51,758 nt of DNA from Acidobacteriota bacterium (GTDB lineage Bacteria > Acidobacteriota > Vicinamibacteria > Vicinamibacterales > UBA8438): the NCBI GenBank assembly GCA_021296475.1, contig JAGWAJ010000025.1, forward strand, positions 1,490-53,247, in the 5' to 3' direction. The position numbers were made by a program, and so were the translations under genes. The notes below the pieces were generated by a model. It ran no database searches and was not told the DNA's origin. It saw nothing but the letters and a program-made list of their open reading frames with translations. Below are positions 791 through 15,669 of the stretch, one piece after another (positions within the stretch are counted from its first letter, which is position 1; each line of letters begins with the position of its first letter).

Positions 791-819
791 TTGGACAATC
801 GCGGGCAAGCGTGTATGGT
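791..819 (+). promoter_or_regulatory. Sigma-70-like promoter for the ankyrin/cytochrome cluster
   Basis: TTGGAC (791-796), a 17-nt spacer and TATGGT (814-819) lie 33 nt before the ATG at 852. A purine-rich RBS (GGGGAAACAGG) directly precedes that ATG. The match and spacing are good, but the site was found by eye only. Confidence 0.55.
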
Positions 820-851
820 CAGGTCACGCCAATCGACTCGGGGGAAACAGG

Positions 852-2429
852 ATGCGGGTCACCATTTGCCGGATGGCGGTTGTCCTCGCGGTCGCCCTCG
901 TTGGAGTCCCAGTCCACGCCGCTGACGACGCAGTGGCCGACCTCGCCAAGGCCCAGCAGTGGTCGAGCGTGGCCCACTTGGCGCGGCAGGGCGTTGACGT
1001 CAACACGCCCAAGGCCGACGGTTCGACGGCCTTGCACTGGGCGGCCCACTGGAACGACTCGGCGACCGCGGCGTTGCTGATCGAAGCCGGCGCCGATGTC
1101 GATGCGGTCACCCACACCGGGGTCAGCGCGCTGTCGCTCGCCTGCGAGAACGGCAATCCGGCCATCGTCGGTCTTCTGCTGAAGGCGGGCGCGGAGGTCA
1201 ACGTGGCGGCGGTCGGTGGCGTCACTCCGCTGCTGCTCGCCGCCCAGTCCGGCCACGCCGGCGTGGTCCGGGCGCTCCTGGAGCACGGCGCCGACGTCGA
1301 CGCGAAAGCTACCGGGTCGGCGCAGACGCCGCTCATGTGGGCGGCCAGCGAGGGGCACGAGGCGAGCGTCGCGTTGCTGCTCGAGCGGGGGGCGTCGATC
1401 ACGGCGGTGTCCGCGGGCGGCTTCACGCCCTTGATGTTCGCCGTGCGCGCCGGCCATCTCGACGTCGTCACGACGCTGGTCGAGGCGGGGGCGGACGTCG
1501 ATGCGGCGACGCCCGTCATGCCCGCGTCCGGCGGCCGGGTCGGCTACGACCTCGGCGCCGGCCCCATCACGCCGCTGCCCCTCGCGATTGCCAACAACCA
1601 CGCCCCCGTGGCGCTGTACCTCCTGGCGCAGGGCGCGAATCCCAATCAGGGCGCCGCGGGCATGAGCGCGTTGCACCACGCGGTGTACGGCATCGGCCAG
1701 AACCGCGCGGCCGGCGGCGGCGGCGACGACGGGTCCGGCCTGCGGGGACGTGAGGAGCTCGTGCGGGCCCTGCTCGCACACGGGGCGGACCCGAACGCCC
1801 GACAGACGGCCCCCGGCCTCATGGGGTTTGGCGGAGAGGGAAAGCACGGGGCGTTCGAAGCGTTCGGCTGGGGCACGAACCGCGTCGGCGCCACGCCGTT
1901 CTACCTGGCCGCGGACTGCAGCAACGCCAACCCCGAGCTGATGCGGATCCTGCTGGCCCATGGGGCCGACCCGAGCCTGACGACCGAGGACGGGACCACC
2001 CCGCTGATGGCGTCCTCCGGGCTCGGCTGGGGCTACGCCCCACCGGACGAGGCCGCGCGGCAGCGCATGCTGGCCGGGGTGCGGTTCCTGGTGGAGGAGG
2101 TCGGCGCCGACGTCAATGCCGCCAACGCGGCGGGATTCACGCCCCTGCACGGGGCCGCCTACAAGGGGTCGGTCGACATCATCGCCTACCTTGTCGAGCG
2201 CGGCGCCGAGATGGACGTGCGCGACTATCGCGGACGGACGCCCTACCGGCTCGCAAGCTGGGCCCGCAACTCCACCGACTTCTACCGCTGGCCGGAGGCG
2301 GCCGACCTGCTGGTGGAGCTGGGCGCGAACCCGCGGCTGGGCGTCCCCGCCAACCTGCAGGAACGCGAGCTGGCCCGCGCGGCGGGGGAGGCGACCGGGC
2401 AGGCGGGCGGGACGACGGGCGGGCGCTGA
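852..2429 (+). CDS. Secreted ankyrin-repeat protein
   Basis: The 525-residue product starts at an ATG with a purine-rich RBS; an upstream in-frame start at 786 would bury the signal peptide. Residues 1-23 form a signal peptide with the hydrophobic core AVVLAVALVGVPVHA, so the protein is probably periplasmic. From about residue 25 to 495 the chain is a run of roughly ten 33-residue ankyrin repeats with the usual G-x-TPLH-A-A pattern and G-A-D-V/P-N loops. Gly-rich insertions lie near residues 285-300 and 320-345. Ankyrin repeats bind proteins and have no catalytic role, so this is probably a partner or scaffold for the heme proteins encoded just downstream. The next gene begins 18 nt after the stop. 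The fold call is firm; the role is inferred from position. Confidence 0.9.
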   Translation: MRVTICRMAVVLAVALVGVPVHAADDAVADLAKAQQWSSVAHLARQGVDVNTPKADGSTALHWAAHWNDSATAALLIEAGADVDAVTHTGVSALSLACENGNPAIVGLLLKAGAEVNVAAVGGVTPLLLAAQSGHAGVVRALLEHGADVDAKATGSAQTPLMWAASEGHEASVALLLERGASITAVSAGGFTPLMFAVRAGHLDVVTTLVEAGADVDAATPVMPASGGRVGYDLGAGPITPLPLAIANNHAPVALYLLAQGANPNQGAAGMSALHHAVYGIGQNRAAGGGGDDGSGLRGREELVRALLAHGADPNARQTAPGLMGFGGEGKHGAFEAFGWGTNRVGATPFYLAADCSNANPELMRILLAHGADPSLTTEDGTTPLMASSGLGWGYAPPDEAARQRMLAGVRFLVEEVGADVNAANAAGFTPLHGAAYKGSVDIIAYLVERGAEMDVRDYRGRTPYRLASWARNSTDFYRWPEAADLLVELGANPRLGVPANLQERELARAAGEATGQAGGTTGGR

Positions 2430-2447
2430 CGGCCCAGGAACCTGGCA

Positions 2448-2981
2448 ATGCGTCCGGATGCATGCGGCGACGTGGAGCGGAGCGATCACCCGCAACGTGA
2501 GCCCCCGCGGACTGTCGCTCGACGGAGTGTGCTGCTGGCCGCCGTCCTCACGGTGAGTGCGTCCGCCACGGTCGCGACGCAGAAGGTCTTCACGGCCGAC
2601 GATCTCGCGGTCGTCGAGCGGACGGTAGGCACCTACTTCGAGGCCGCGAAGTCGCAGATCGCGGCGCAGGAATACGAGACGGCCAAGGTCAGGCTCATCG
2701 TGGCACGCGAGTATCTCGCACGGAGCTGGACGTTCTGGTCGCGGCACGCACGAGGCGACGCGGCGAAGAGGGTCACGGCGACGACCGCGGCGCTGGACGC
2801 GCTCGACGACCGGTTGTCCGAGGTTCCCATCGATCCGGCCCGCGTGCAGGCGGCGGTGCACGAGGCGACCGCCGCGTGTGCGGCCTGCCACGCCGAGTTC
2901 CGCGTCGAGCATCCGGCCAGCGGCACGTACGGCATCAAGCCGGGAATCCTCGGCGAGCACACCGGGGAGCGGGGACGATGA
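2448..2981 (+). CDS. Cytochrome c'-like monoheme protein
   Basis: The product has 177 residues. After an Arg-rich N-terminus, residues about 27-44 form a hydrophobic export signal. The mature part is helical and carries one heme c attachment site, CAACH (144-148), near the C-terminus, the placement seen in cytochrome c'/c556 four-helix proteins. It lies 18 nt after the ankyrin gene and overlaps the DUF1592 gene by ATGA, so the three are very likely one transcript. The likely role is periplasmic electron transfer, perhaps with the diheme protein next door. The N-terminal 20 residues before the signal look unnatural, so the true start may lie further in. The cytochrome c' assignment rests on heme position and helical character, not on a search. 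Confidence 0.75.
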   Translation: MRPDACGDVERSDHPQREPPRTVARRSVLLAAVLTVSASATVATQKVFTADDLAVVERTVGTYFEAAKSQIAAQEYETAKVRLIVAREYLARSWTFWSRHARGDAAKRVTATTAALDALDDRLSEVPIDPARVQAAVHEATAACAACHAEFRVEHPASGTYGIKPGILGEHTGERGR

Positions 2982-5392
2982 CCATGATCTGGACGCGACT
3001 CCGGACGGCGGCCCGGGCGATGTTCCTTCTGATGCTCAGCTACGGGGTGGCGACCGCCGCCGAGACGCCCGATCCCGAGCTCCTGACGCGGTATTGCGTC
3101 CGGTGCCACAGCGACCGGCTCGAGACCGGCGGCCTGACGCTCGAGCACGCCGACGTGGACCGCATTGCCGAGGACCCCGAGCTGTGGGAGAAGATCGCGT
3201 GGAAGATTCGCATCGGCGCGATGCCGAAGGTGCCGGCGCCCCGGCCTGAACGGCCGGTGCTCGACCGCTTTGCGTCCGCGGTGGAGCGCACGCTCGATCG
3301 GGCCGCGGCCGCGTCGCCCGATCCCGGGCCGCCCACCTTCCATCGGCTCAACCGCCTCCAGTACGTCAACGCGGTGCGCGACCTCCTCGGCGTGGAGGTC
3401 GACGGACCGAGTCTGCTGCCCCCGGACGCGACCAGCTACGGATTCGACAACAGCCGCGGCCTCACCATCACGCCGTCGCTGCTCGACCGCTACCTGTCCG
3501 CCGCCGTCCGGATCGCGCGCGCCGCCGTCGGCGATCCGACCCTGCGCCCGACGACCGAGACGTATCGCATCGGGCAAACGGTCCGGCAGGGCGAGCGCAT
3601 GAGCGACGACCTGCCCTTCGGCACCAATGGCGGCGTGGCCGTCCGGCATACCTTCCCGCTCGACGGCGAGTATGCCGTTCGCGTGCTGCTGCCGGGCATG
3701 AGCACAGGCGCTCTCTACTCCCGGCCGCAGAGCGAAATCCTCGTCACCGTGGACGGCGCCACCGTCAAGCACTGGTCGCTCGAGCCGCTGCGGGGCGTGA
3801 ATCCTGCAATCGCAGCCGCGACCCGCCCCGAGGAGGACGCGCCCCCCCGCGAGCCGGGCGAGGATCTCGTGGTCCGTTTCGCGGCGAAGGCCGGCACCCG
3901 CCCGGTGGGCGTGACCCTCCTGAACATTCGGCCCGCGTATGCCGAGGGGTTGCGGGGCGGGGTGGTGGGAGATCCGGGACCGGTGCGACGCGGCGCGTCG
4001 GGCCGCATCGAGTCGTTCACGGTCTCGGGCCCGTTCAACGCCACCACGCCCGAGGACGCCGAGAGCCGGCGGCGCATCTTCACCTGTCGGCCGACCGCGG
4101 CCACCGACGAGCGGGCCTGCGCACGGCAGATTCTCACGCGGCTGGCGCGGCGCGCCTTCCGGCGGCCGGTCGGCGCCGCCGACGTCGAGGCGATGATGCC
4201 CTTCTACGAGGACGGGCGGCGCGCCGGGGGCTTCGACGCGGGCATCCAGGCCGCTCTGGAGCGCCTGCTGATCTCGCCCCAGTTCCTGTTTCGCATCGAG
4301 CGCGGTCCCGACGGCGCGCAGCCGAACACGATCTTTCGCGTGAGCGACGTCGAGCTGGCGTCCCGGTTGTCGTTCTTCCTCTGGAACAGCCCCCCCGACG
4401 AGGAGCTGCTCGGCGCCGCCGAGCGCGGCCGGCTCGGGGAGCCGGAGATCCTGGCGGCCCAGACGCGCCGGATGCTCGCCGACCGCCGCGCCGGGCTGAT
4501 GGCGTCCGGCTTCGCCGGCCAGTGGCTGGGGACGCGCCTCGTCCGCGAGCTGCAGCCCGACCCGACGCTCTATCCCCTGGACGCCAACCTGCAGGAGGCC
4601 CTGGCGCGCGAGACCGAGCTGTTCTTCGAGAGCCAGCTCCGCGACGATCGGAGCGTGCTGGATCTGCTCGGCGCCGACTACACGTACCTGAACGAGCGGC
4701 TCGCCGCGCACTACGGCATTCCCAACGTCTACGGCAGCCACATGCGGCGCGTGACGCTGACCGACGAGCGACGGTTCGGGATCCTGGGGAAGGGCGGCGT
4801 CCTGATGGTGACCTCCCATGCCAATCGGACGTCGCCCGTGGTGCGCGGCAAGTGGATCATGGACAACCTCGTGGCCAATCCCCCGCCCCCGCCTCCCCCG
4901 GACATACCGCCGCTCCCGGAAAACGACGCGGCGTTGCCGACCACCGTGCGGGAGCGACTCGAGCAGCACCGGCGCAATCCGGTGTGCGCCTCGTGCCACA
5001 CCCTGATGGACCCCTTCGGGTTTGCGCTCGAGAACTTCGACGTCACCGGCCAGTGGCGAGAGGTCGACAACGGCCAGCCGGTGGATGCGTCGGGGGAGGC
5101 GCTCGACGGGTCGAATATGGACGGCGTGGTGGGACTGCGCCAGGCGCTGACGGCCAACCGCACGCAGTTTGCGACGGTCTTCACCGAGCGGCTGCTCACC
5201 TATGCGCTCGGGCGCGGCGTGGGAGCCCGCGATCGACCCGCCGTGCGGGCGATCGTCCGCCAGACCGCCCCGGACTTTCGCTGGTCGGACATCGTTCTCG
5301 GCATCGTCGAGAGCCCGCTGTTCCGGATGAACCGCACGCCTCGCGCCCCGGGCGCCGAACCCCAGGCGGCGGCGACGGTGGCGAGTCGCTAA
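2978..5392 (+). CDS. Diheme DUF1592/DUF1588/DUF1585 (planctomycete-type cytochrome) protein
   Basis: The 804-residue secreted protein starts at the ATG overlapping the previous stop; residues 8-28 form a signal peptide. It has the domain series of the planctomycete cytochrome families: an N-terminal heme c domain with CVRCH (40-44), a DUF1587-like segment (about 122-185), a beta-rich region that resembles a carbohydrate-binding fold (about 215-320), DUF1595-like (375-435), DUF1592-like (450-580), DUF1588-like (590-690) with a second heme site CASCH (670-674), and DUF1585-like (710-785). A Pro-rich stretch (635-646) precedes the second heme. In genomes of Planctomycetota and Acidobacteriota these proteins are usually encoded beside DUF1552 proteins, as here. 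Biochemical function is unknown; oxidation of a polymer or small organic is a common guess, not shown here. Confidence 0.9.
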   Translation: MTMIWTRLRTAARAMFLLMLSYGVATAAETPDPELLTRYCVRCHSDRLETGGLTLEHADVDRIAEDPELWEKIAWKIRIGAMPKVPAPRPERPVLDRFASAVERTLDRAAAASPDPGPPTFHRLNRLQYVNAVRDLLGVEVDGPSLLPPDATSYGFDNSRGLTITPSLLDRYLSAAVRIARAAVGDPTLRPTTETYRIGQTVRQGERMSDDLPFGTNGGVAVRHTFPLDGEYAVRVLLPGMSTGALYSRPQSEILVTVDGATVKHWSLEPLRGVNPAIAAATRPEEDAPPREPGEDLVVRFAAKAGTRPVGVTLLNIRPAYAEGLRGGVVGDPGPVRRGASGRIESFTVSGPFNATTPEDAESRRRIFTCRPTAATDERACARQILTRLARRAFRRPVGAADVEAMMPFYEDGRRAGGFDAGIQAALERLLISPQFLFRIERGPDGAQPNTIFRVSDVELASRLSFFLWNSPPDEELLGAAERGRLGEPEILAAQTRRMLADRRAGLMASGFAGQWLGTRLVRELQPDPTLYPLDANLQEALARETELFFESQLRDDRSVLDLLGADYTYLNERLAAHYGIPNVYGSHMRRVTLTDERRFGILGKGGVLMVTSHANRTSPVVRGKWIMDNLVANPPPPPPPDIPPLPENDAALPTTVRERLEQHRRNPVCASCHTLMDPFGFALENFDVTGQWREVDNGQPVDASGEALDGSNMDGVVGLRQALTANRTQFATVFTERLLTYALGRGVGARDRPAVRAIVRQTAPDFRWSDIVLGIVESPLFRMNRTPRAPGAEPQAAATVASR

Positions 5393-5425
5393 GGCCAAGG
5401 CGGTCCTCGATCAAGGAGAGCTCGC

Positions 5426-6778
5426 ATGTTCATCACCAAGACGCACCTCCCTCGGCGGACCGTGCTGCGGGGCGTGGGGACCGCCCTGGCTTTGCCGTTC
5501 CTGGATGCAATGGTCCCCGCCCTGACCGCGCTCGGTCGCACCGCGGCGGCTCCGGTCCGGCGGGCGGCGTGGTTCTACGTGCCCAACGGGATGTCCATGC
5601 GCCACTGGCTCCCCGAGAAGGAGGGTGCGCTGCCCGGCGAGCTGCCGATGATCCTGGAGAGCCTGACGCCCTATCGCGACGACCTCGTCGTGCTGAGCAA
5701 CCTGGCGCACATGACCGCCTATCCGCGCGAAGGGGATCCGGCCTGCGACCACGCCCGCTCCGGGGCGACCTATCTCACCGGCGTGCACGCCGATCCCGAC
5801 CTGGTCAGCCCGGTCACGGACGTCTCCGTGGATCAGCGCGCGGCAATCGAGACGGGGCGCGAGACGCAGTTGGCCTCGCTCGAGCTGGGGGTCGCCGTAC
5901 GGGCCAGTTGCGTAACCGGTTCGATAGGGTACCCCTGCGCCTATCGCACGACGATCTCCTATCGCACCCCGACGATGGCGCTGCCGGTGGAGATCGATCC
6001 GCGTGCGGTGTTCGAACGACTGTTCGGGGTGGCCGACAGCACGGACCGCAAGTCGCGTCTGGCGCGCATCTCGCGCAACGCGAGCCTGCTCGATTCGGTC
6101 ACCAACGAAATCGCACACCTGAACGGCAAGCTGGCCTCGACCGACCGCTCGAAGCTGTCGGGGTATCTCGAGTCGGTGCGGGAAGTCGAGCGGCGGATCC
6201 AGATGGCCGAGGCCCAGAGCGATCGCGAGCTCCCGGCGGTCGACAAGCCGGCGGGCGTTCCCGAGACCTTCGCCGGGCACGCGCAGCTCATGGGCGACCT
6301 TCTGGTCCTGGCGTACCAGACCGATCTGTCGCGCGTGGCCACGTTCATGCTCGCCGAGGAAGTGAGCTCGCGCGCATATCCCGAGGCGGGAGTGCCCGAT
6401 TCGCACCACGCGCTGTCGCACCACCAGAACGTGCTGAGCAACATCGACCGGCTGGCGAAGCTCAACGAGTTCCATATGCAGCAGTTCGCGCACGTGGTCG
6501 GCAAGCTGAAGTCGATACCCGAAGCCGACGGGACGCTGCTGGACCGGACGATGCTGGTCTACGGCACGGGCATCAGCGACAGCAACGCGCACCTGCACGA
6601 CGATCTGCCGATCGCGCTCGTGGGCGGCCGTGCGGCCGGCATCAAGGGCGGGCGGCATATCCGCTACCCGAAGGAAACCCCGTTGACGAATCTGTGGCTG
6701 ACCGTCCTCGACAAGATGGGCGTGCACGTCGACAAGCTCGGCGACAGCACGGGGAGCATCAAGCTCGCCACCGTATAG
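5426..6778 (+). CDS. DUF1552 protein, Tat-exported
   Basis: The product has 450 residues, and CAAGGAGAG lies just before the ATG. The N-terminus has the twin-arginine signal RRTVLRG (10-16) followed by a hydrophobic stretch (17-30), so the protein is probably folded, perhaps with a cofactor, before export to the periplasm. The sequence then enters the DUF1552 fold at the segment AWFYVPNGM (48-56). The family is related to sulfatase/alkaline-phosphatase-like DUF1501 proteins but has no assigned reaction. It starts 33 nt after the DUF1592 gene, and the two form the conserved DUF1592-DUF1552 pair. Co-export of a Tat substrate with a diheme Sec substrate suggests a two-component periplasmic enzyme; this is inference. 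Confidence 0.88.
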   Translation: MFITKTHLPRRTVLRGVGTALALPFLDAMVPALTALGRTAAAPVRRAAWFYVPNGMSMRHWLPEKEGALPGELPMILESLTPYRDDLVVLSNLAHMTAYPREGDPACDHARSGATYLTGVHADPDLVSPVTDVSVDQRAAIETGRETQLASLELGVAVRASCVTGSIGYPCAYRTTISYRTPTMALPVEIDPRAVFERLFGVADSTDRKSRLARISRNASLLDSVTNEIAHLNGKLASTDRSKLSGYLESVREVERRIQMAEAQSDRELPAVDKPAGVPETFAGHAQLMGDLLVLAYQTDLSRVATFMLAEEVSSRAYPEAGVPDSHHALSHHQNVLSNIDRLAKLNEFHMQQFAHVVGKLKSIPEADGTLLDRTMLVYGTGISDSNAHLHDDLPIALVGGRAAGIKGGRHIRYPKETPLTNLWLTVLDKMGVHVDKLGDSTGSIKLATV

Positions 6779-6817
6779 TGACGGTCTACCTACTTTCGAG
6801 ATAGAGGTCAGATAGGT

Positions 6818-7921
6818 ATGAAGAAGATGAATAGGAAGAGGCCGGGCGTGCTGGTTTGGTTCCTGGCCGCGTGTCTCCTGGCCAGCACCGGCGCGCTGAC
6901 GGCGCAGTCGGAGAGCACCGGGGCGTGGGACGAGGAGGCGTGGGACGAGGAGGCGGCCGCGGCGTACCTGGACCAGCGGCAGAGCTGGTGGGCCGATTGG
7001 CCGGTCGCGGCCAGAGACAACGGCACCTACTGCATCTCGTGCCATACGGTGGTGCCCTACGCGCTGGCGCGACCGCACCTGCGAGAGGGGTCCGACACCA
7101 GGCCGACTGCGACCGAGCGGGGGCTGCTGGCGAACGTCGAGCAGCGCGTCCGGGAGTGGCAGGACCTCGCCCCGGAGGGAGACCAGGCACGCGGGACCGA
7201 GGCGATCCTCAACGCCCTGGTGCTTGCGAGCTCCGACGCACGCTCCGGGAAGCTCGGCCACGAAACCAGGATGGCCTTCGACCATCTCTGGGCGACGCAG
7301 GCGCGGACCGGGGACCTGGATGGCGCGTGGCCCTGGTTCGTGGTCGATCTGCAGCCGTGGGAGTCGGACGACGCCCCCTTCTACGGAGCCGCGCTGGCCG
7401 CGCTCGCCGTGGGCACCGCGCCGGAAGGCTACGCGTCGACGGACGAAGCCCGGAAGGGACTCGAACGGCTCCGCAGCTATCTGGCCAGGCTCTACGATCA
7501 CCAACCGCTGTTCAACCGCCTGACGCTGCTCTGGGCGTCGACGACGCTCCCGGGCGTGCTCGACTCGCAACAGAAGACGGCGATCACTGAAGAAGTGCTC
7601 GCGCTGCAGGAGGACGACGGCGGATGGAGTCTGGCTTCGCTGGGGGAGTGGGAGCGCACGGACGGCACGACGCTCCCGACGGGCAGTGACGGGTACGCGA
7701 CTGGTCTCGTCGTGTTCACGCTCGGACAGGCGGGGCTTGCGAGCGAGCACGCCCAGCTTACTCGGGGACTGTCCTGGCTCCGCCGCCATCAGGACCGGAC
7801 GGACGGATCGTGGCCGGGCGAGTCGCTCAACAAGGAGCGCGATCCGGAATCCGACGTCGGTCGCTTCATGCGCGACGCGGCCACCGCCTACGCCGTGCTG
7901 GCCCTCACTGCGTCGGACTGA
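6818..7921 (+). CDS. Secreted alpha/alpha-toroid (prenyltransferase/squalene-cyclase-like) protein with heme c site
   Basis: The 367-residue product has a signal peptide (about 8-30). A short acidic linker with the repeat AWDEE-AWDEE (37-46) is followed by one heme c motif, CISCH (72-76). The rest is helical, with repeats ending in D-G-x-W motifs (for example DGGWSL and DGSWPG) that are typical of the alpha/alpha barrel shared by squalene cyclases, prenyltransferases and related proteins. I see no DXDD cyclase motif, so terpene cyclisation is unlikely. The start has a purine-rich leader but a weak RBS. It lies 39 nt after the DUF1552 gene and is the last gene before a strong hairpin, so it probably belongs to the same cluster. 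The heme ligation and fold are visible; the role is unknown. Confidence 0.75.
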   Translation: MKKMNRKRPGVLVWFLAACLLASTGALTAQSESTGAWDEEAWDEEAAAAYLDQRQSWWADWPVAARDNGTYCISCHTVVPYALARPHLREGSDTRPTATERGLLANVEQRVREWQDLAPEGDQARGTEAILNALVLASSDARSGKLGHETRMAFDHLWATQARTGDLDGAWPWFVVDLQPWESDDAPFYGAALAALAVGTAPEGYASTDEARKGLERLRSYLARLYDHQPLFNRLTLLWASTTLPGVLDSQQKTAITEEVLALQEDDGGWSLASLGEWERTDGTTLPTGSDGYATGLVVFTLGQAGLASEHAQLTRGLSWLRRHQDRTDGSWPGESLNKERDPESDVGRFMRDAATAYAVLALTASD

Positions 7922-7973: not shown

Positions 7974-8018
7974 GGCAATCCGCCCGCGGCGCACCCCGCG
8001 GCGCCGGGGCGGATTGCC
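7974..8018. terminator. Bidirectional hairpin terminator
   Basis: Perfect 12-bp arms GGCAATCCGCCC (7974-7985) and GGGCGGATTGCC (8007-8018) enclose an inner CGGCGC/GCGCCG stem. The hairpin sits between two convergent genes, 2 nt beyond the minus-strand stop. There is no T tract, which is common in high-GC genomes. Confidence 0.75.
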
Positions 8019-8020
8019 AG

Positions 8021-9142
8021 CTACCGGGTCGGGTTCGGGACCCCTTCGAGCTCCTCGCCTCGGAACTCCGCCTCGAGCAACCGCGCACCCCGCATGATGC
8101 CCTCGAACGAGTAGTTCGCCTCGTGACAGGCGTACTCGAACACCCTGTTCTCGCTCCGCGACCACGCGTACTCGCCCGTGAACGGCGCCGTCCAGACCGT
8201 CGGGTCGTCGACAGTGAAGCGGTAGACGAGCTTGTCGGCGCTCTCCATTCTGAAGCGCTCGATCACCGTCATGTCTCGCGAGCCCCGCGCGAAGGAAGGG
8301 CGGTCCCGGAAGTTGGTGGTCTCCACGACCAGGGTGTCACCCTCCCAGTGCCCGATCGAATCCCCCAGCCACTTCCGGATCTCCGGCGGATCGTGTTCGG
8401 CGTTCATCCGGACGATCCTCGCATCGTGGTTCATCTCGGTCAGGATCATGATGTAGTCTTCGGCCTGCACAATCCGCTTCTGATTGTTATAGAGGACCGG
8501 CAACATCGGCGGGCCGGCCGTAGAGCCGAACCCGAGCAGGCAGCGCTCCGCGAGCGGCCGCTGCTCCATATCGTCAAACGGGCCTGGCGCATCCAGACCG
8601 GCCTCGAGCCAGTACGCGGTACCGTCGTTCTGACGCGGACGGCCCCCACCACCACTCCGAGCGGCGTCAGCGGCGATCTGCTCCTCGGTCCGTGGCGGAT
8701 ACCTGCCGTTCGGGGGGTCGACCAGGATGGAGGTGCGCCACTGCCCGTCGATCTGGAACGCCCCGGAGCCCGGGTCGATCCAGAAGGTGTTGTAACCCCC
8801 GACGTTGCCCGAGGCACCGGTTGACCCGTCCCCTCCTACCGGAGGTGCGCCGCGATTCGGGTCGCTGCGCTCGGTATTCACCGAGGGGACGATGTTGTTG
8901 CGGCGATCGAGCGCGGCCGTCGCCCGTTCGCCGAACGCCGCCGCCTCCTCATCGGTCAGCGACATCTTCTCACCCAGCTCGGTCGGACGCTGCATCGGCG
9001 TCAGCGTACTGGTGTCGTAGGTGCCGGACAGGTCCGGACGACCGCTCGGCGTCCGTGAAATGTCGTCGGTCTGTGCCGCCGCGATCGGCGCCAGGCACAC
9101 GACCGCAAGCCCCGCCACACCGGTCGCTACTCGACTGTGCAT
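8021..9142 (-). CDS. Secreted protein of uncharacterised family
   Basis: The 373-residue product starts at the ATG at 9142, preceded by a strong GAGGAGG Shine-Dalgarno sequence; the longer frame to 9229 lacks one. Residues 1-23 form a signal peptide ending AAAQ. The mature protein starts with the S-G-R-P-D-L-S-G segment often seen at the N-terminus of secreted Acidobacteriota proteins of unknown function. It then has a Gly/Asn-rich stretch (about 90-115) and a C-terminal beta-rich half with the W-x-G-D-T-L-V-V-E-T-T-N-F motif and a conserved Cys-His pair (Y-A-C-H-E-A-N-Y). No enzyme family is recognised. It converges on the heme-toroid gene across a shared hairpin. The coding call is firm; the function is unknown. 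Confidence 0.85.
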   Translation of the reverse strand: MHSRVATGVAGLAVVCLAPIAAAQTDDISRTPSGRPDLSGTYDTSTLTPMQRPTELGEKMSLTDEEAAAFGERATAALDRRNNIVPSVNTERSDPNRGAPPVGGDGSTGASGNVGGYNTFWIDPGSGAFQIDGQWRTSILVDPPNGRYPPRTEEQIAADAARSGGGGRPRQNDGTAYWLEAGLDAPGPFDDMEQRPLAERCLLGFGSTAGPPMLPVLYNNQKRIVQAEDYIMILTEMNHDARIVRMNAEHDPPEIRKWLGDSIGHWEGDTLVVETTNFRDRPSFARGSRDMTVIERFRMESADKLVYRFTVDDPTVWTAPFTGEYAWSRSENRVFEYACHEANYSFEGIMRGARLLEAEFRGEELEGVPNPTR

Positions 9143-9338
9143 GTGACCCCTCCTCAAGAGCGTAACCGTCGACATTCTAACCGCTCGCTTTGGTAGGATT
9201 GCGACAGAAGGGTGCGCGCGACGTGTCATCGGTCACGCAAGCACTCCCCACCTGGGCTGGCCGAGAGGAGCGACCTCGTCGATCTGCTGCTGGCGGGCGG
9301 CGCCGGCCCGGATCGCCGGCACTGCGGGAGATCCTGGC

Positions 9339-10974: not shown

Positions 10975-12488
10975 TCCGCGTTGCCTCCGTACCCGGGCGC
11001 GGTGACCGCGACCCTGCCGCCGCCGAGCACGGCTTCGACATAGTTCGAGGGGGCCATCAGCTCGTTGGCGGCTCGCTCCGCCAGCGTGTAGAGGGGCCGG
11101 GCGTAGAGACCGATTGCCAGCGTGACGATCGCCAGCGCCGCAATCGGAGCCAGCAGCAGCCAGCGGCGCTGCGGCGCGAGCGAGGGCGGCGGCCCGGCGT
11201 CGTCCGGGCGCGCCTTCCAGAAGGCGTTCAGCCAGATCTTGGTCATCGAGTAGACAGTCAGCAGACCCACGGTCAGCGCTACGCCGGCGATGACGAACTC
11301 GTCCCTCTCGATCGAGGCCTGGATCAGCAGCAGCTTCGCCCAGAAGCCGGACAGGGGCGGGAAGCCGGCCAGCGAGAACGCCGGCACGAAGAACAGCGCC
11401 GCGAGCAGCGGCTTGTCGCGGTAGAGTCCGCCGAGCCTCTCGAGGTCGGTCGACCCGGCCAGCCGACCGACCGCGCCGGACACGAAGAAGAGGTTCGCCT
11501 TCACGATGATGTGGTGGATCACGTAGAAGATCGCGCCCAGCAACCCGAACGTCGTGAAGAGCGCGAGGCCCAGGATCATGTAGCCGATCTGGCTGATGAT
11601 GTGGAACGACAGGATGCGCCGCAACTCATTCTGCGATGCGGCGCCGAGCACGCCCGTGACCATCGTCAGGCCCGCCACCCAGAGCAGCAGCTCGTGCGTG
11701 TACCCGACGTCGTGCCGGAAGATCAGCGTGAAGACGACCTTGGTCAGCAGGCCGGAGAAGACGGCCGAAACCGCCGTCTGCGGCGTGTGGTAGCTGGCCG
11801 GAAGCCAGAAGAACAGCGGGAATACCGCAGACTTCAGGCCGAACGCGACGATGAACACCATGGCGACCAGGGTGAGCAGCCCCTGGTCTTCGACCTCCTG
11901 CACCCGCACGTGCAGCTCCGCCATGTTGAGCGTGCCCGTCAATCCGTACAACAGTCCGATGCCGCTCAGCAGCAGCGTCGTCGCGATCAGGCTGAGGGCC
12001 GCGTAGCGCACGGCCCCGTCCAGTTGCTCGGGCCTCCCTCCCAGCACCAGCAGGGCCAGCGAGGCGATCAGCATGACCTCGAACCAGACGTAGAGATTGA
12101 AGATGTCCCCCGCCAGGAACGCGCCGCACACGCCGGCCAGCAATGCGTGCAGCAGCGGATGCAGAGCCTGGGAGAGCGGGCCGTGCCGCGTGTCTCCGAA
12201 CGCGTAGATGACGGTGGCCAGCCCGATCAGCGCCGAGACGGCGACCATCGCCGCGCTCAGGTGATCGGCCACCAGCGTGATTCCGTAGGGTGCCGGCCAG
12301 CGGCCGATCTGGACCGACGCGATGCCCTCTCGCCACACGACCGTCAGCAGGCCGGCGGCCGCGGCCGACAGGCCCACGGCTCCGACCAGGCTCACGGCCC
12401 GTTGCGTCCTCTCGCTGCCACGGCCCGCAAAGCCGATTACGGCCGCGGCCAGCGGAATCACGATCGGAGCGACCAGCAGCCAGTTCAA
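10971..12488 (-). CDS. mrpD: Mrp antiporter subunit D (NuoN/NuoM-like)
   Basis: The 505-residue product has about 14 predicted membrane helices and belongs to the proton-translocating family shared with complex I subunits NuoL/M/N. The Y-V-W-F-E-V-M-L-I-A-S segment carries the conserved channel Glu, and a Lys in the G-L-K-S-A-V-F-P-L-F-F-W-L-P-x-x-Y motif is the proposed proton-path residue. The Q-I-G-Y-M-I-L-G segment is also conserved. It overlaps mrpC and mrpE by 4 nt each, showing strict translational coupling. With MrpA it forms the transport core in the cytoplasmic membrane. It is complete. Confidence 0.95.
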   Translation of the reverse strand: MNWLLVAPIVIPLAAAVIGFAGRGSERTQRAVSLVGAVGLSAAAAGLLTVVWREGIASVQIGRWPAPYGITLVADHLSAAMVAVSALIGLATVIYAFGDTRHGPLSQALHPLLHALLAGVCGAFLAGDIFNLYVWFEVMLIASLALLVLGGRPEQLDGAVRYAALSLIATTLLLSGIGLLYGLTGTLNMAELHVRVQEVEDQGLLTLVAMVFIVAFGLKSAVFPLFFWLPASYHTPQTAVSAVFSGLLTKVVFTLIFRHDVGYTHELLLWVAGLTMVTGVLGAASQNELRRILSFHIISQIGYMILGLALFTTFGLLGAIFYVIHHIIVKANLFFVSGAVGRLAGSTDLERLGGLYRDKPLLAALFFVPAFSLAGFPPLSGFWAKLLLIQASIERDEFVIAGVALTVGLLTVYSMTKIWLNAFWKARPDDAGPPPSLAPQRRWLLLAPIAALAIVTLAIGLYARPLYTLAERAANELMAPSNYVEAVLGGGRVAVTAPGYGGNAE

Positions 12489-12877
12489 TCGACCGCCCTC
12501 TGCTCCGCGTCCGCCCCCGCGTCCGCCGACGAGGGTTCCGCGGCCCGCATGCGGTCGGTGTCCACGGTTTCCAGCTCCTGGTAGGTCCGGAAGGCGAGCA
12601 CCAGCGCGAACGTGAGCAGGCTGAACGAGATCACGATCGCGGTCAGCATCAACGCCTGCGGCACGGCGTTCGCGACGTCGGGCAGGGGCTGCGACTCTCC
12701 CGGTGCGATCAGCGGGGGCCGGGCGCGCGTCATGCCCCCGCTGGCGAAGATCACCAGGTTGGCGGCGTGGGACAGCAGCGCCAGTCCGAAGATGAACCGC
12801 ACAAAGCTGCGGCCGAGCATCAGGTAGACCGTCGCGGCCATCAGGACCCCGACCAGCACCGCGATGACGGGTTCCAT
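12485..12877 (-). CDS. mrpC: Mrp antiporter subunit C (NuoK-like)
   Basis: The 130-residue product starts at an ATG 5 nt after the mrpA stop. It has three membrane helices; the G-L-A-L-L-S-H-A-A-N-L-V-I-F segment in helix 2 matches the NuoK/MnhC core. A family-typical loop with D-P-L-P/ L-P-D-V-A-N-A-V-P-Q-A-L-M-L-T-A-I-V-I leads into helix 3. The last 25 residues form an acidic, low-complexity cytoplasmic tail (Ala/Asp/Glu). NuoK relatives couple ion flow between antiporter-like subunits. It is intact and normally placed. Confidence 0.94.
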   Translation of the reverse strand: MEPVIAVLVGVLMAATVYLMLGRSFVRFIFGLALLSHAANLVIFASGGMTRARPPLIAPGESQPLPDVANAVPQALMLTAIVISFSLLTFALVLAFRTYQELETVDTDRMRAAEPSSADAGADAEQRAVD

Positions 12878-12882
12878 TCCGG

Positions 12883-15669
12883 CTACTGCTCCTTGATGCC
12901 GATGACGAAGCTCAGCACGACGCCGATGACGACCAGGTAGACGCCGACGTCGAAGATCACCGGCGTGCCTACCTTCAGCCCCGCCAGGGTTCCCCATTGG
13001 CTGGTCAGGAACGGGGCGGCATCCCGGATCGATCCGACGAAGCCCGATGCGATTGCCACGGCCAGACCGAAGGCGCCGAGCGCGCGGGGGTCGACGCGCA
13101 GGATGCCTCGCGCCGCCTGCGGGCCGAAGACGAACGCGTACAGGCTGAGCGCGATCGACGCGACCAGCCCGCCGACGAAGCCGCCGCCGGGGTGCTCGTG
13201 GCCCCGCAGCAGCAGGAAGACGGAGAAGATGAGAATCAGCGGGACCAATCGGCGCGTGGTTTCCCGCAGGATCATGGTGTTCACGATGTTGCCGTCCGAC
13301 ACCTGGGCGCGCGCTGCCGTTCCCTCCGAGCCCGGAAGCGGAGCGCCCTCGCGCCGCCGGGCTCCCGGCAGCAGCAGCGCGAAGACCGCCGCGCCCGCGA
13401 TCGCGAGCACGGTGATCTCCCCCATGGTGTCGAGCGCACGGAAATCGACGAGTATCACGTTGACGATGTTCCTGCCCTGGCCGCCGGGCACGGCGGTACG
13501 CTCGAAGTACTCCTGCAGATCCGGTGGGGGAGGGGACGCCGTCACGGCGAGCATGAGCAGGGTGACGCCGATCCCGACCGTGACCGCGACGATGCCGTTG
13601 CGCAGGCGCGCGGGTCCCGAAGGCCAGGCCTCGTTCCTGAAGCTCGGCAGCTTGAGCAGGACTATCGCGACGATTACCGTGACGAGGGTCTCGACGGTCA
13701 ACTGCGTCATCGCTACGTCCGGCGCCCCGAAGAGCAGGAAGATGAGGGCCGTGCTGATCCCCACCACGCCGAGCGCGCAGATCCCGAGCAGACGGGATCG
13801 AGAGCGGATGATCACGATCGACGCCGCGGCTGCCAGGGCGGCCAGCGACCACTCGAGCAACGCTGCGTCCGCGAACCGCACCGGACCCGGGACCACGCCC
13901 TTGATCCAGAGAGTCGCGGCCAGAGCGAGCCCGAAGGTGGCGAACACGATCAGCAGATAGTGTCGCTGGACGCCGGACTGCAGTCGACGGGTCTGCCAGG
14001 CCGCGACGGCGGCGATCCCGTTCATGGCCGCGTCGTACGCACGGTCACCGCTGAGCGGAATCCATCTCCGGAGGCCGCCGAGCGCCGCCGCAATCGGGCC
14101 TCGCGTCCAGAATCCCAGCACCGCCACGGCCAGCGTCGCCAGGGTCAGCGTCAGGGCCTCGCCCGTGCTGTGCCAGGGAGCGTGCCCGCTATCCAGGGCC
14201 TGCCCGATCACGGCCGTCTCCGCGGGCACGAGCAGGCGCAGGAACGGGAACTCCGGGGCCAGCCCCCAGTAGATGCCGACCGCACCCAGCACGACGGGGC
14301 CGCACCAGAGCGCCCACCGGCCTTCCCGCGCCGGCTTGCCGTAGTCGGGGCAGGGGCCGAAGAACGGCTTGATCGCCAGGACCATCGCAATGGTCGCGAT
14401 GGGCGCCGCGGCGAGGAAAGTCGCCCACGGAAGGTAGGTGGAGGTGTCGGCCGCGAAGCCGACGGTGTACAGGAGCTCCTTGCCGAGGAACCCGATCGAG
14501 TACGGCACGCCGGCCATCGAGACCGCCGCGGCGACCGCGGCCGCGAACGTGACGGGCATGGCTCTCCACAGCCCCCCGAGCCGCGCCAGATCGCGCGTGC
14601 CGGTCGCCTTCTCGATCGTCCCCGCCACCAGGAACAGGGCCGCCTTGTAGAGGGCGTGCGCGACCAGGAACGCGAGCGCGGCCAGGACTCCCCGCGACGG
14701 CTCGCCCGGCCCCGACAGCGGCGACGATCCGAGAAACAGGACGCACGTGCCGAGCGCCATGACCGTCGTGTATGCCAGGACCTGCTTCAGGTCGGTCTTG
14801 CCGAGCGACACGAAGGCCGAGTACACCGCCGTCACCGCTCCCACCGCGGTCAGCGTCTCCATCCAGAGCGCGGTCCCGCCCAGCAGCGGAGTCAGGCGCG
14901 CCAGCAGGAACACTCCGGCCTTGACCATCGTGGCCGAGTGCAGGTAGGCCGAGACCGGCGTCGGAGCCGCCATCGCGTTCGGCAGCCAGAAGTGGAACGG
15001 GAATTGCGCCGACTTGGTGAAGGCTCCGAGCAGCACCAGGACGACGACCGCCGTGTAGTGCGGGTGATCGGCGAAGGCCTCCGGGGCGGCCAGCATCTCC
15101 CGCAGGCTGAACGTGCCGACCGCCTGCCCCAGGACGACGAAGCCGGCCAGCATCGCCAGGGCGCCCGCGCCGGTTACGAGCAGGCCCTGGAGCGCGGCGC
15201 GGCGCGCGGTGGCGTTCTCGTGCGAGTAGCCGATGAGCAGGAACGACGTGATCGTGGTGAGTTCCCAGAAGACGAAGAGCGCGACGAGGTTGTCGGCCAG
15301 CACCAGGCCGAGCATCGCCAGCATGAGCGTGAACCGGCCGCGTTGCCGGTAGCCCCTCATGTACGCGCCGGCGAACAGGAAGATGAACGCGCCGATGCCG
15401 GTGATCAGCAGGGCGAACAGCAGGCTCAGGCCGTCGACCACGAAGTCGAGGTCGATGCCCAGCTGCGGCAGCCACGCCATCTCCCAGACGAGGATCTCGC
15501 CGCCGGAGACGGCCGGGATCATCGTGCAGAACCACGCGAAGAGCACGACAGGCAGGGCGACCGCGAGTCGCACGTAGGCCGGGTCCGTCAAGCTCGCGCC
15601 CCAGAGAGGCCGTCTTGTGTCGGAGGCACTCGTACAGGATACCGGCTGCGTCGGGGTCCGGGGAGGCAT
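12883..15669 (-). CDS. mrpA: Mrp antiporter subunit A fused to subunit B (MrpAB)
   Basis: The 928-residue membrane protein is the largest subunit. Residues about 30-480 are NuoL-like, with the F-W-E-L-T-T-I-T-S-F-L-L-I-G motif and the Lys in A-F-T-K-S-A-Q-F-P-F-H-F-W-L-P. About 480-735 is the NuoJ-like C-terminal part (D-V-A-M-T-Q-L-T-V-E-T). After a hydrophilic linker (about 760-785), residues 790-928 are a complete MrpB domain (V-N-T-M-I-L-R-E-T, R-G-H-E-H-P-G-G-G-F-V-G-G-L). No separate mrpB exists, so this is a fusion, known in some other lineages. The N-terminus is odd: the hydrophilic stretch 1-28 stands where a first membrane helix is expected, and no such helix is encoded upstream in any frame. 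The start is therefore uncertain; a TTG at codon 27 is an alternative. Confidence 0.92.
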   Translation of the reverse strand: MPPRTPTQPVSCTSASDTRRPLWGASLTDPAYVRLAVALPVVLFAWFCTMIPAVSGGEILVWEMAWLPQLGIDLDFVVDGLSLLFALLITGIGAFIFLFAGAYMRGYRQRGRFTLMLAMLGLVLADNLVALFVFWELTTITSFLLIGYSHENATARRAALQGLLVTGAGALAMLAGFVVLGQAVGTFSLREMLAAPEAFADHPHYTAVVVLVLLGAFTKSAQFPFHFWLPNAMAAPTPVSAYLHSATMVKAGVFLLARLTPLLGGTALWMETLTAVGAVTAVYSAFVSLGKTDLKQVLAYTTVMALGTCVLFLGSSPLSGPGEPSRGVLAALAFLVAHALYKAALFLVAGTIEKATGTRDLARLGGLWRAMPVTFAAAVAAAVSMAGVPYSIGFLGKELLYTVGFAADTSTYLPWATFLAAAPIATIAMVLAIKPFFGPCPDYGKPAREGRWALWCGPVVLGAVGIYWGLAPEFPFLRLLVPAETAVIGQALDSGHAPWHSTGEALTLTLATLAVAVLGFWTRGPIAAALGGLRRWIPLSGDRAYDAAMNGIAAVAAWQTRRLQSGVQRHYLLIVFATFGLALAATLWIKGVVPGPVRFADAALLEWSLAALAAAASIVIIRSRSRLLGICALGVVGISTALIFLLFGAPDVAMTQLTVETLVTVIVAIVLLKLPSFRNEAWPSGPARLRNGIVAVTVGIGVTLLMLAVTASPPPPDLQEYFERTAVPGGQGRNIVNVILVDFRALDTMGEITVLAIAGAAVFALLLPGARRREGAPLPGSEGTAARAQVSDGNIVNTMILRETTRRLVPLILIFSVFLLLRGHEHPGGGFVGGLVASIALSLYAFVFGPQAARGILRVDPRALGAFGLAVAIASGFVGSIRDAAPFLTSQWGTLAGLKVGTPVIFDVGVYLVVIGVVLSFVIGIKEQ

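Follow-up and report, generated by a model that had tools for sequence, protein, structure and literature searches.

PSD and DUF1552 proteins are abundant in environmental bacteria, and no reaction is known for them. At one acidobacterial locus the two are accompanied by an ankyrin-repeat protein and two further heme proteins, and the question arises as to which of these neighbours belong with the pair, and what they could be doing together. The window, that is, the whole stretch of DNA that we analysed (51,758 nucleotides), comes from a genome of 3.17 Mb in 160 contigs, 85% complete. We read the locus as one toroid-extended copy of a periplasmic redox module composed of ankyrin, PSD and DUF1552 proteins, often with a c'-like cytochrome, in which electrons would travel from DUF1552 to PSD and then to c'. 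The probability that we give to this reading is about one half.

Layout of the five-gene unit

All five genes of a preliminary description of this DNA were confirmed in the same order and on the same strand (ankyrin, c'-like, PSD, DUF1552, toroid). The features are as follows.

791 to 819, + strand: promoter-like box TTGGACA-16-TATGGT (sigma-70-type match, conservation)
852 to 2429, + strand: exported ankyrin-repeat protein, 525 aa (Pfam Ank_2, 6.6e-68; signal-like N-terminus)
2448 to 2981, + strand: small c-type heme protein, c'-like (PF01322, 4.9e-4, below gathering)
2978 to 5392, + strand: PSD protein, with an N-terminal c-type domain, DUF1587, DUF1595, DUF1592, DUF1588 (second heme) and DUF1585 (Pfam)
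3542 to 4045, + strand: beta-sandwich domain in PSD, residues about 189 to 356 (AlphaFold2 model; weak)
5426 to 6778, + strand: DUF1552 (HXXSHH) protein, Tat-exported, predicted alkaline phosphatase/sulfatase-like fold (PF07586, 2.3e-85)
5453 to 5473, + strand: Tat motif RRTVLRG of DUF1552 (R10, R11, L14 and R15 invariant)
5750 to 5752, + strand: codon of the invariant His109 of DUF1552 (alignment; putative role by motif register)
6404 to 6424, + strand: HHALSHH motif of DUF1552 (H328, S331 and H332 invariant, 28 rows)
6818 to 7921, + strand: heme c and alpha-toroid protein, a genus-level addition to the unit
7974 to 8018, + strand: hairpin between convergent genes, with 12-nt perfect arms and no T-run

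Judged from the sequence, the five genes form one tight unit between a conserved promoter-like box and a strong hairpin. The TGGACA-16-TATGGT box is the sole sigma-70-type match in 8.7 kb (0.4 expected), and it is kept in comparison with two congeners, while the sequence farther upstream diverges. Position 791, taken earlier as the start of the cluster, corresponds to this box, but the first gene, encoding the ankyrin protein, begins at ATG 852, a start conserved in the congeners. The c' and PSD genes overlap via ATGA, and the DUF1552 gene lies directly downstream of PSD. At the far end, a 124-nt region containing the hairpin folds at -70.9 kcal/mol (z -3.4). Where a promoter and a strong terminator had been proposed as bounds, we thus retain a conserved promoter-like box and a strong hairpin, the latter, however, without a T-run and between convergent genes. 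The convergent gene (8021-9229, - strand) belongs to a family that matches nothing in Pfam; its relatives are found near modules in 16 loci. Farther along the window, 12485-13852 (- strand) encodes a membrane protein resembling NADH-quinone oxidoreductase 4L, which may belong to an Mrp-type antiporter operon.

The picture of five consecutive exported proteins, three of them with heme c and one a Tat substrate, is borne out. Hydrophobic N-termini are present in most members of all five protein families, and the RRxxLR-type motif of DUF1552 in 28 of 28 rows. The CxxCH sites number one in the c'-like protein (CAACH, 2877-2891), two in PSD (3095-3109 and 4985-4999, both invariant in the alignment) and one in the toroid protein (CISCH, 7031-7045; CxxCH invariant in 21 homologues). 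Met82 of PSD, also invariant, is a candidate axial ligand.

Partners of the PSD-DUF1552 pair

The source genome contains about 20 DUF1552 and 22 PSD4 matches, and almost every one has its counterpart beside it. Its neighbourhoods were examined on stretches; 18 pairs have usable flanks. An ankyrin gene adjoins the pair in 17 of these 18 complete loci (the C158 ankyrin included), and, by a hand count, 18 of the 22 ankyrin loci of the genome are at most 1.5 kb away from a pair, with about one expected by chance. A wider sample comprised 79 loci, picked by similarity to the window DUF1552. Pooling gives ankyrin adjacency in 64 of 73 loci with complete flanks, all of them either picked for similarity to the window's DUF1552 or carrying a paralogue of it, and hence not a random sample. 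Records titled Gammaproteobacteria and Planctomycetota are among the ankyrin-bearing loci; the titles of metagenome bins may be wrong, and we give most weight to long contigs. Loci with ankyrin occur on a 2.2 Mb contig titled Gammaproteobacteria (L128), where three modules stand in a row, and on a 774 kb contig titled Isosphaeraceae (L151).

The association depends on the type of PSD. Within the 79-locus sample, an ankyrin gene adjoins 44 of the 48 complete pairs whose PSD scores at least 600 bits, and none of the six pairs whose PSD scores below 560 bits; these six form a single clade (support 100). Pairwise distances among DUF1552, PSD and ankyrin proteins correlate, both within the genome and across genomes (r 0.51-0.76, Mantel p 0.0005). 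Finally, in two ankyrin paralogues (L022:2901-4919 and L071:2865-4763) a cytochrome c domain is fused to the C-terminus. In sponge symbionts, ankyrin proteins are commonly interpreted as acting in host interaction (PMC6306507), and the ankyrin protein could be a eukaryote-like protein of that sort, placed here by coincidence. Adjacency at this rate, co-divergence, specificity for one PSD clade and the cytochrome fusions argue against this scenario, which we regard as extremely improbable. This offers, for many exported ankyrin proteins of Acidobacteriota, an interpretation that does not involve a host.

The c'-like protein resembles the C-terminal half of cytochrome c'; its CxxCH is C-terminal, with c'-like sequence around it. 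It does not reach the gathering score of PF01322 (21.5 versus 26.5 bits); against the PDB, 27 of 27 matches are of the cytochrome c' type, albeit weak (best E 0.009). Profile matches occur in 27 of 28 genomes of the family, and the gene adjoins an ankyrin or DUF1552 gene in all 20 family loci examined, window orthologues excluded, a count that covers the best matches alone and is silent on weaker ones. Its companionship with DUF1592 and DUF1552 is therefore recurrent. Among the 18 pair loci of the source genome, c'-like and toroid genes are found in the window's unit only. The preliminary description had cast the ankyrin protein as a scaffold and the c'-like protein as an electron acceptor: both are recurrent, exported and tied to heme proteins, and the two roles are putative.

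The toroid protein behaves differently. Its profile matches squalene-hopene cyclase 2sqc (E 8.4e-15), and the cyclase motif DXDD is not conserved in the 21 homologues. In each of the four species of the genus the gene is part of the unit, the exact five-gene order being found in the three other members, and it lies apart outside the genus. Thus, of the two genes whose conservation beside DUF1592 and DUF1552 had been put forward as the test, the ankyrin gene is conserved there, whereas the toroid gene is so within the genus only: it is a genus-level extra on a recurrent module. We rejected it as a module member beyond the genus, where it is absent from units; 7 of 14 family toroid loci are about 4 kb or less from another unit (counted by hand; ancestry is shared in part). 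The toroid homologues at L073, L077 and L081 have in their vicinity relatives of a PQQ protein that carries a cytochrome c domain.

The predicted DUF1552 fold and a proposed path of electrons

The predicted model of DUF1552 (mean pLDDT 77.6) has the overall fold of the alkaline phosphatase superfamily. The matches listed by Foldseek are of the alkaline phosphatase/sulfatase superfamily, and VIA-align gives Z up to 16.8, with 484 chains at Z of at least 8. A profile comparison of DUF1552 with sulfatases, made on shallow alignments, gave no support. The fold match would suit a conventional hydrolase of the sulfatase/phosphatase superfamily, active in the periplasm, with cytochromes that merely serve nearby respiration. 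However, PNG appears to stand where the Asp pair would follow the first strand (by motif register; profile alignments miss these positions), and the nucleophile position appears to be taken by the invariant His109, ten residues before the G of L-T-G, a placement in the sulfatase register that comes from the motif and not from a structural measurement. As DUF1552 moreover co-diverges with PSD and the ankyrin protein, we find the hydrolase scenario quite unlikely.

In alkaline phosphatase, one metal-ligand pair is Asp-x-x-x-His. By motif register, H328-x-x-S-H332 of DUF1552 has the same spacing, and its motifs taken together suggest a histidine-rich site in place of the canonical ligands. Tentatively, and with a low probability, DUF1552 may be an alkaline-phosphatase fold in which histidines have taken over the active site to serve a redox reaction, or another that is not hydrolytic, delivering electrons to a dedicated di-heme partner on an ankyrin scaffold, in a family diversified by substrate.

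In PSD, the five domains DUF1587, 1595, 1592, 1588 and 1585 all score above Pfam cut-offs in a single protein. A PDB search with its sequence found no relatives, and one with its N-terminal heme domain only weak matches to cytochrome c552. Fold comparison yielded nothing beyond the beta-sandwich, which in the AlphaFold2 model weakly resembles CBM35/CBM6 and C1q jelly rolls (VIA-align Z about 8). A role in the detoxification of peroxide or nitric oxide can be imagined, PSD being a di-heme peroxidase and c' a gas binder: the unit does have a c'-like heme protein, and catalases are aided by ankyrin proteins. Yet PSD has no sequence match to solved peroxidases, and some 20 diverged copies per genome seem more than detoxification needs, so that we hold this to be very unlikely. 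Such a number of diverged copies suggests instead that substrates or partners differ.

Module membership, co-divergence, export signals and heme sites are shown by the sequence comparisons, the DUF1552 fold by prediction, and that the parts of the module act together is well supported. Beyond this, we infer a physical complex, the direction of the electrons, and the roles of DUF1552 in catalysis and of the ankyrin protein. Before leaving by the Tat route, DUF1552 would fold in the cytoplasm, where it would probably take up a metal; it would then bind its substrate and act on it. PSD would accept electrons via its two c-type hemes, and c' would pass them on to the respiratory chain. The ankyrin protein may dock or mature a heme protein, as for catalases in other bacteria.

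Electrons could also flow in reverse, PSD and c' sending them out to an LPMO or some other oxidative enzyme, with DUF1552 as a helper. PSD has cytochrome and DUF1587 parts such as are described for Cbp2D, the X183 domain of which can reduce LPMOs (PMC8981238), and the CBM-like domain of PSD, albeit weak, would fit. On the other hand, X183 relatives from Teredinibacter failed to activate an LPMO (PMC10916295), and a Pfam scan of the families that recur as neighbours showed no LPMO family. The genome encodes just two GMC flavin oxidoreductases; both genes sit next to a unit and have a gene for gluconate 2-dehydrogenase subunit 3 nearby (L024:3759-6201 and L030:4362-6650), an arrangement that fits electron input from dehydrogenases. 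Reverse flow is therefore, in our opinion, unlikely, and we keep to the path from DUF1552 to PSD to c'. The window's own unit contains no dehydrogenase able to donate electrons. PQQ dehydrogenases were rejected as a partner: they are common in the genome and show no enrichment near units (about 4 of about 48 at 3 kb or less, by hand count, versus about 3.6 expected).

Comparison with known systems

DUF1501 resembles DUF1552 in a C-terminal motif (E 0.0024 in hhalign, at a probability of only 12%) and in a His placed equally far ahead of TG. Unlike DUF1552, none of the six DUF1501 genes of the source genome is near an ankyrin gene, and DUF1501 was rejected as an ankyrin partner. The alkaline phosphatase/sulfatase superfamily is alike in predicted fold and differs in its canonical Asp pair and Ser/Thr/Cys nucleophile, which DUF1552 appears to lack at the expected motif positions (register only).

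Few of the papers searched name these domains, and the only experimental anchor that we found there for the PSD domains is Cbp2D of Cellvibrio japonicus. This protein combines DUF1587 with the X183 cytochrome domain and with X132, which bears a CxxCH (PMC8981238), and it is important when the bacterium grows on insoluble cellulose (PMC12542752). By its description, Cbp2D would be like PSD in that DUF1587 is accompanied by a c-type cytochrome domain and by another domain with CxxCH. It differs in its CBM2, YceI-like X158 and FN3 domains; no CBM2 or YceI-like Pfam match was found in the window PSD. On the strength of this link, candidate substrates would be organic polymers or products derived from them.

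According to work cited in PMC10294975, AnkB-type ankyrin proteins interact with catalases and promote them. An ankyrin is thus genetically linked to a heme protein there as here, the partner being a catalase in that case and a di-heme c-type protein in ours. Another close system is formed by the PSCyt3 genes of Verrucomicrobia, which, according to He et al. 2017 (PMC5615132), usually adjoin one unknown gene family, their function being stated as unknown. The PSD domains are the same as here; the passages on this pairing describe no ankyrin, c' partner, co-divergence or partner fold. With the ankyrin and c' partners, two unknowns become a defined module, open to expression and testing.
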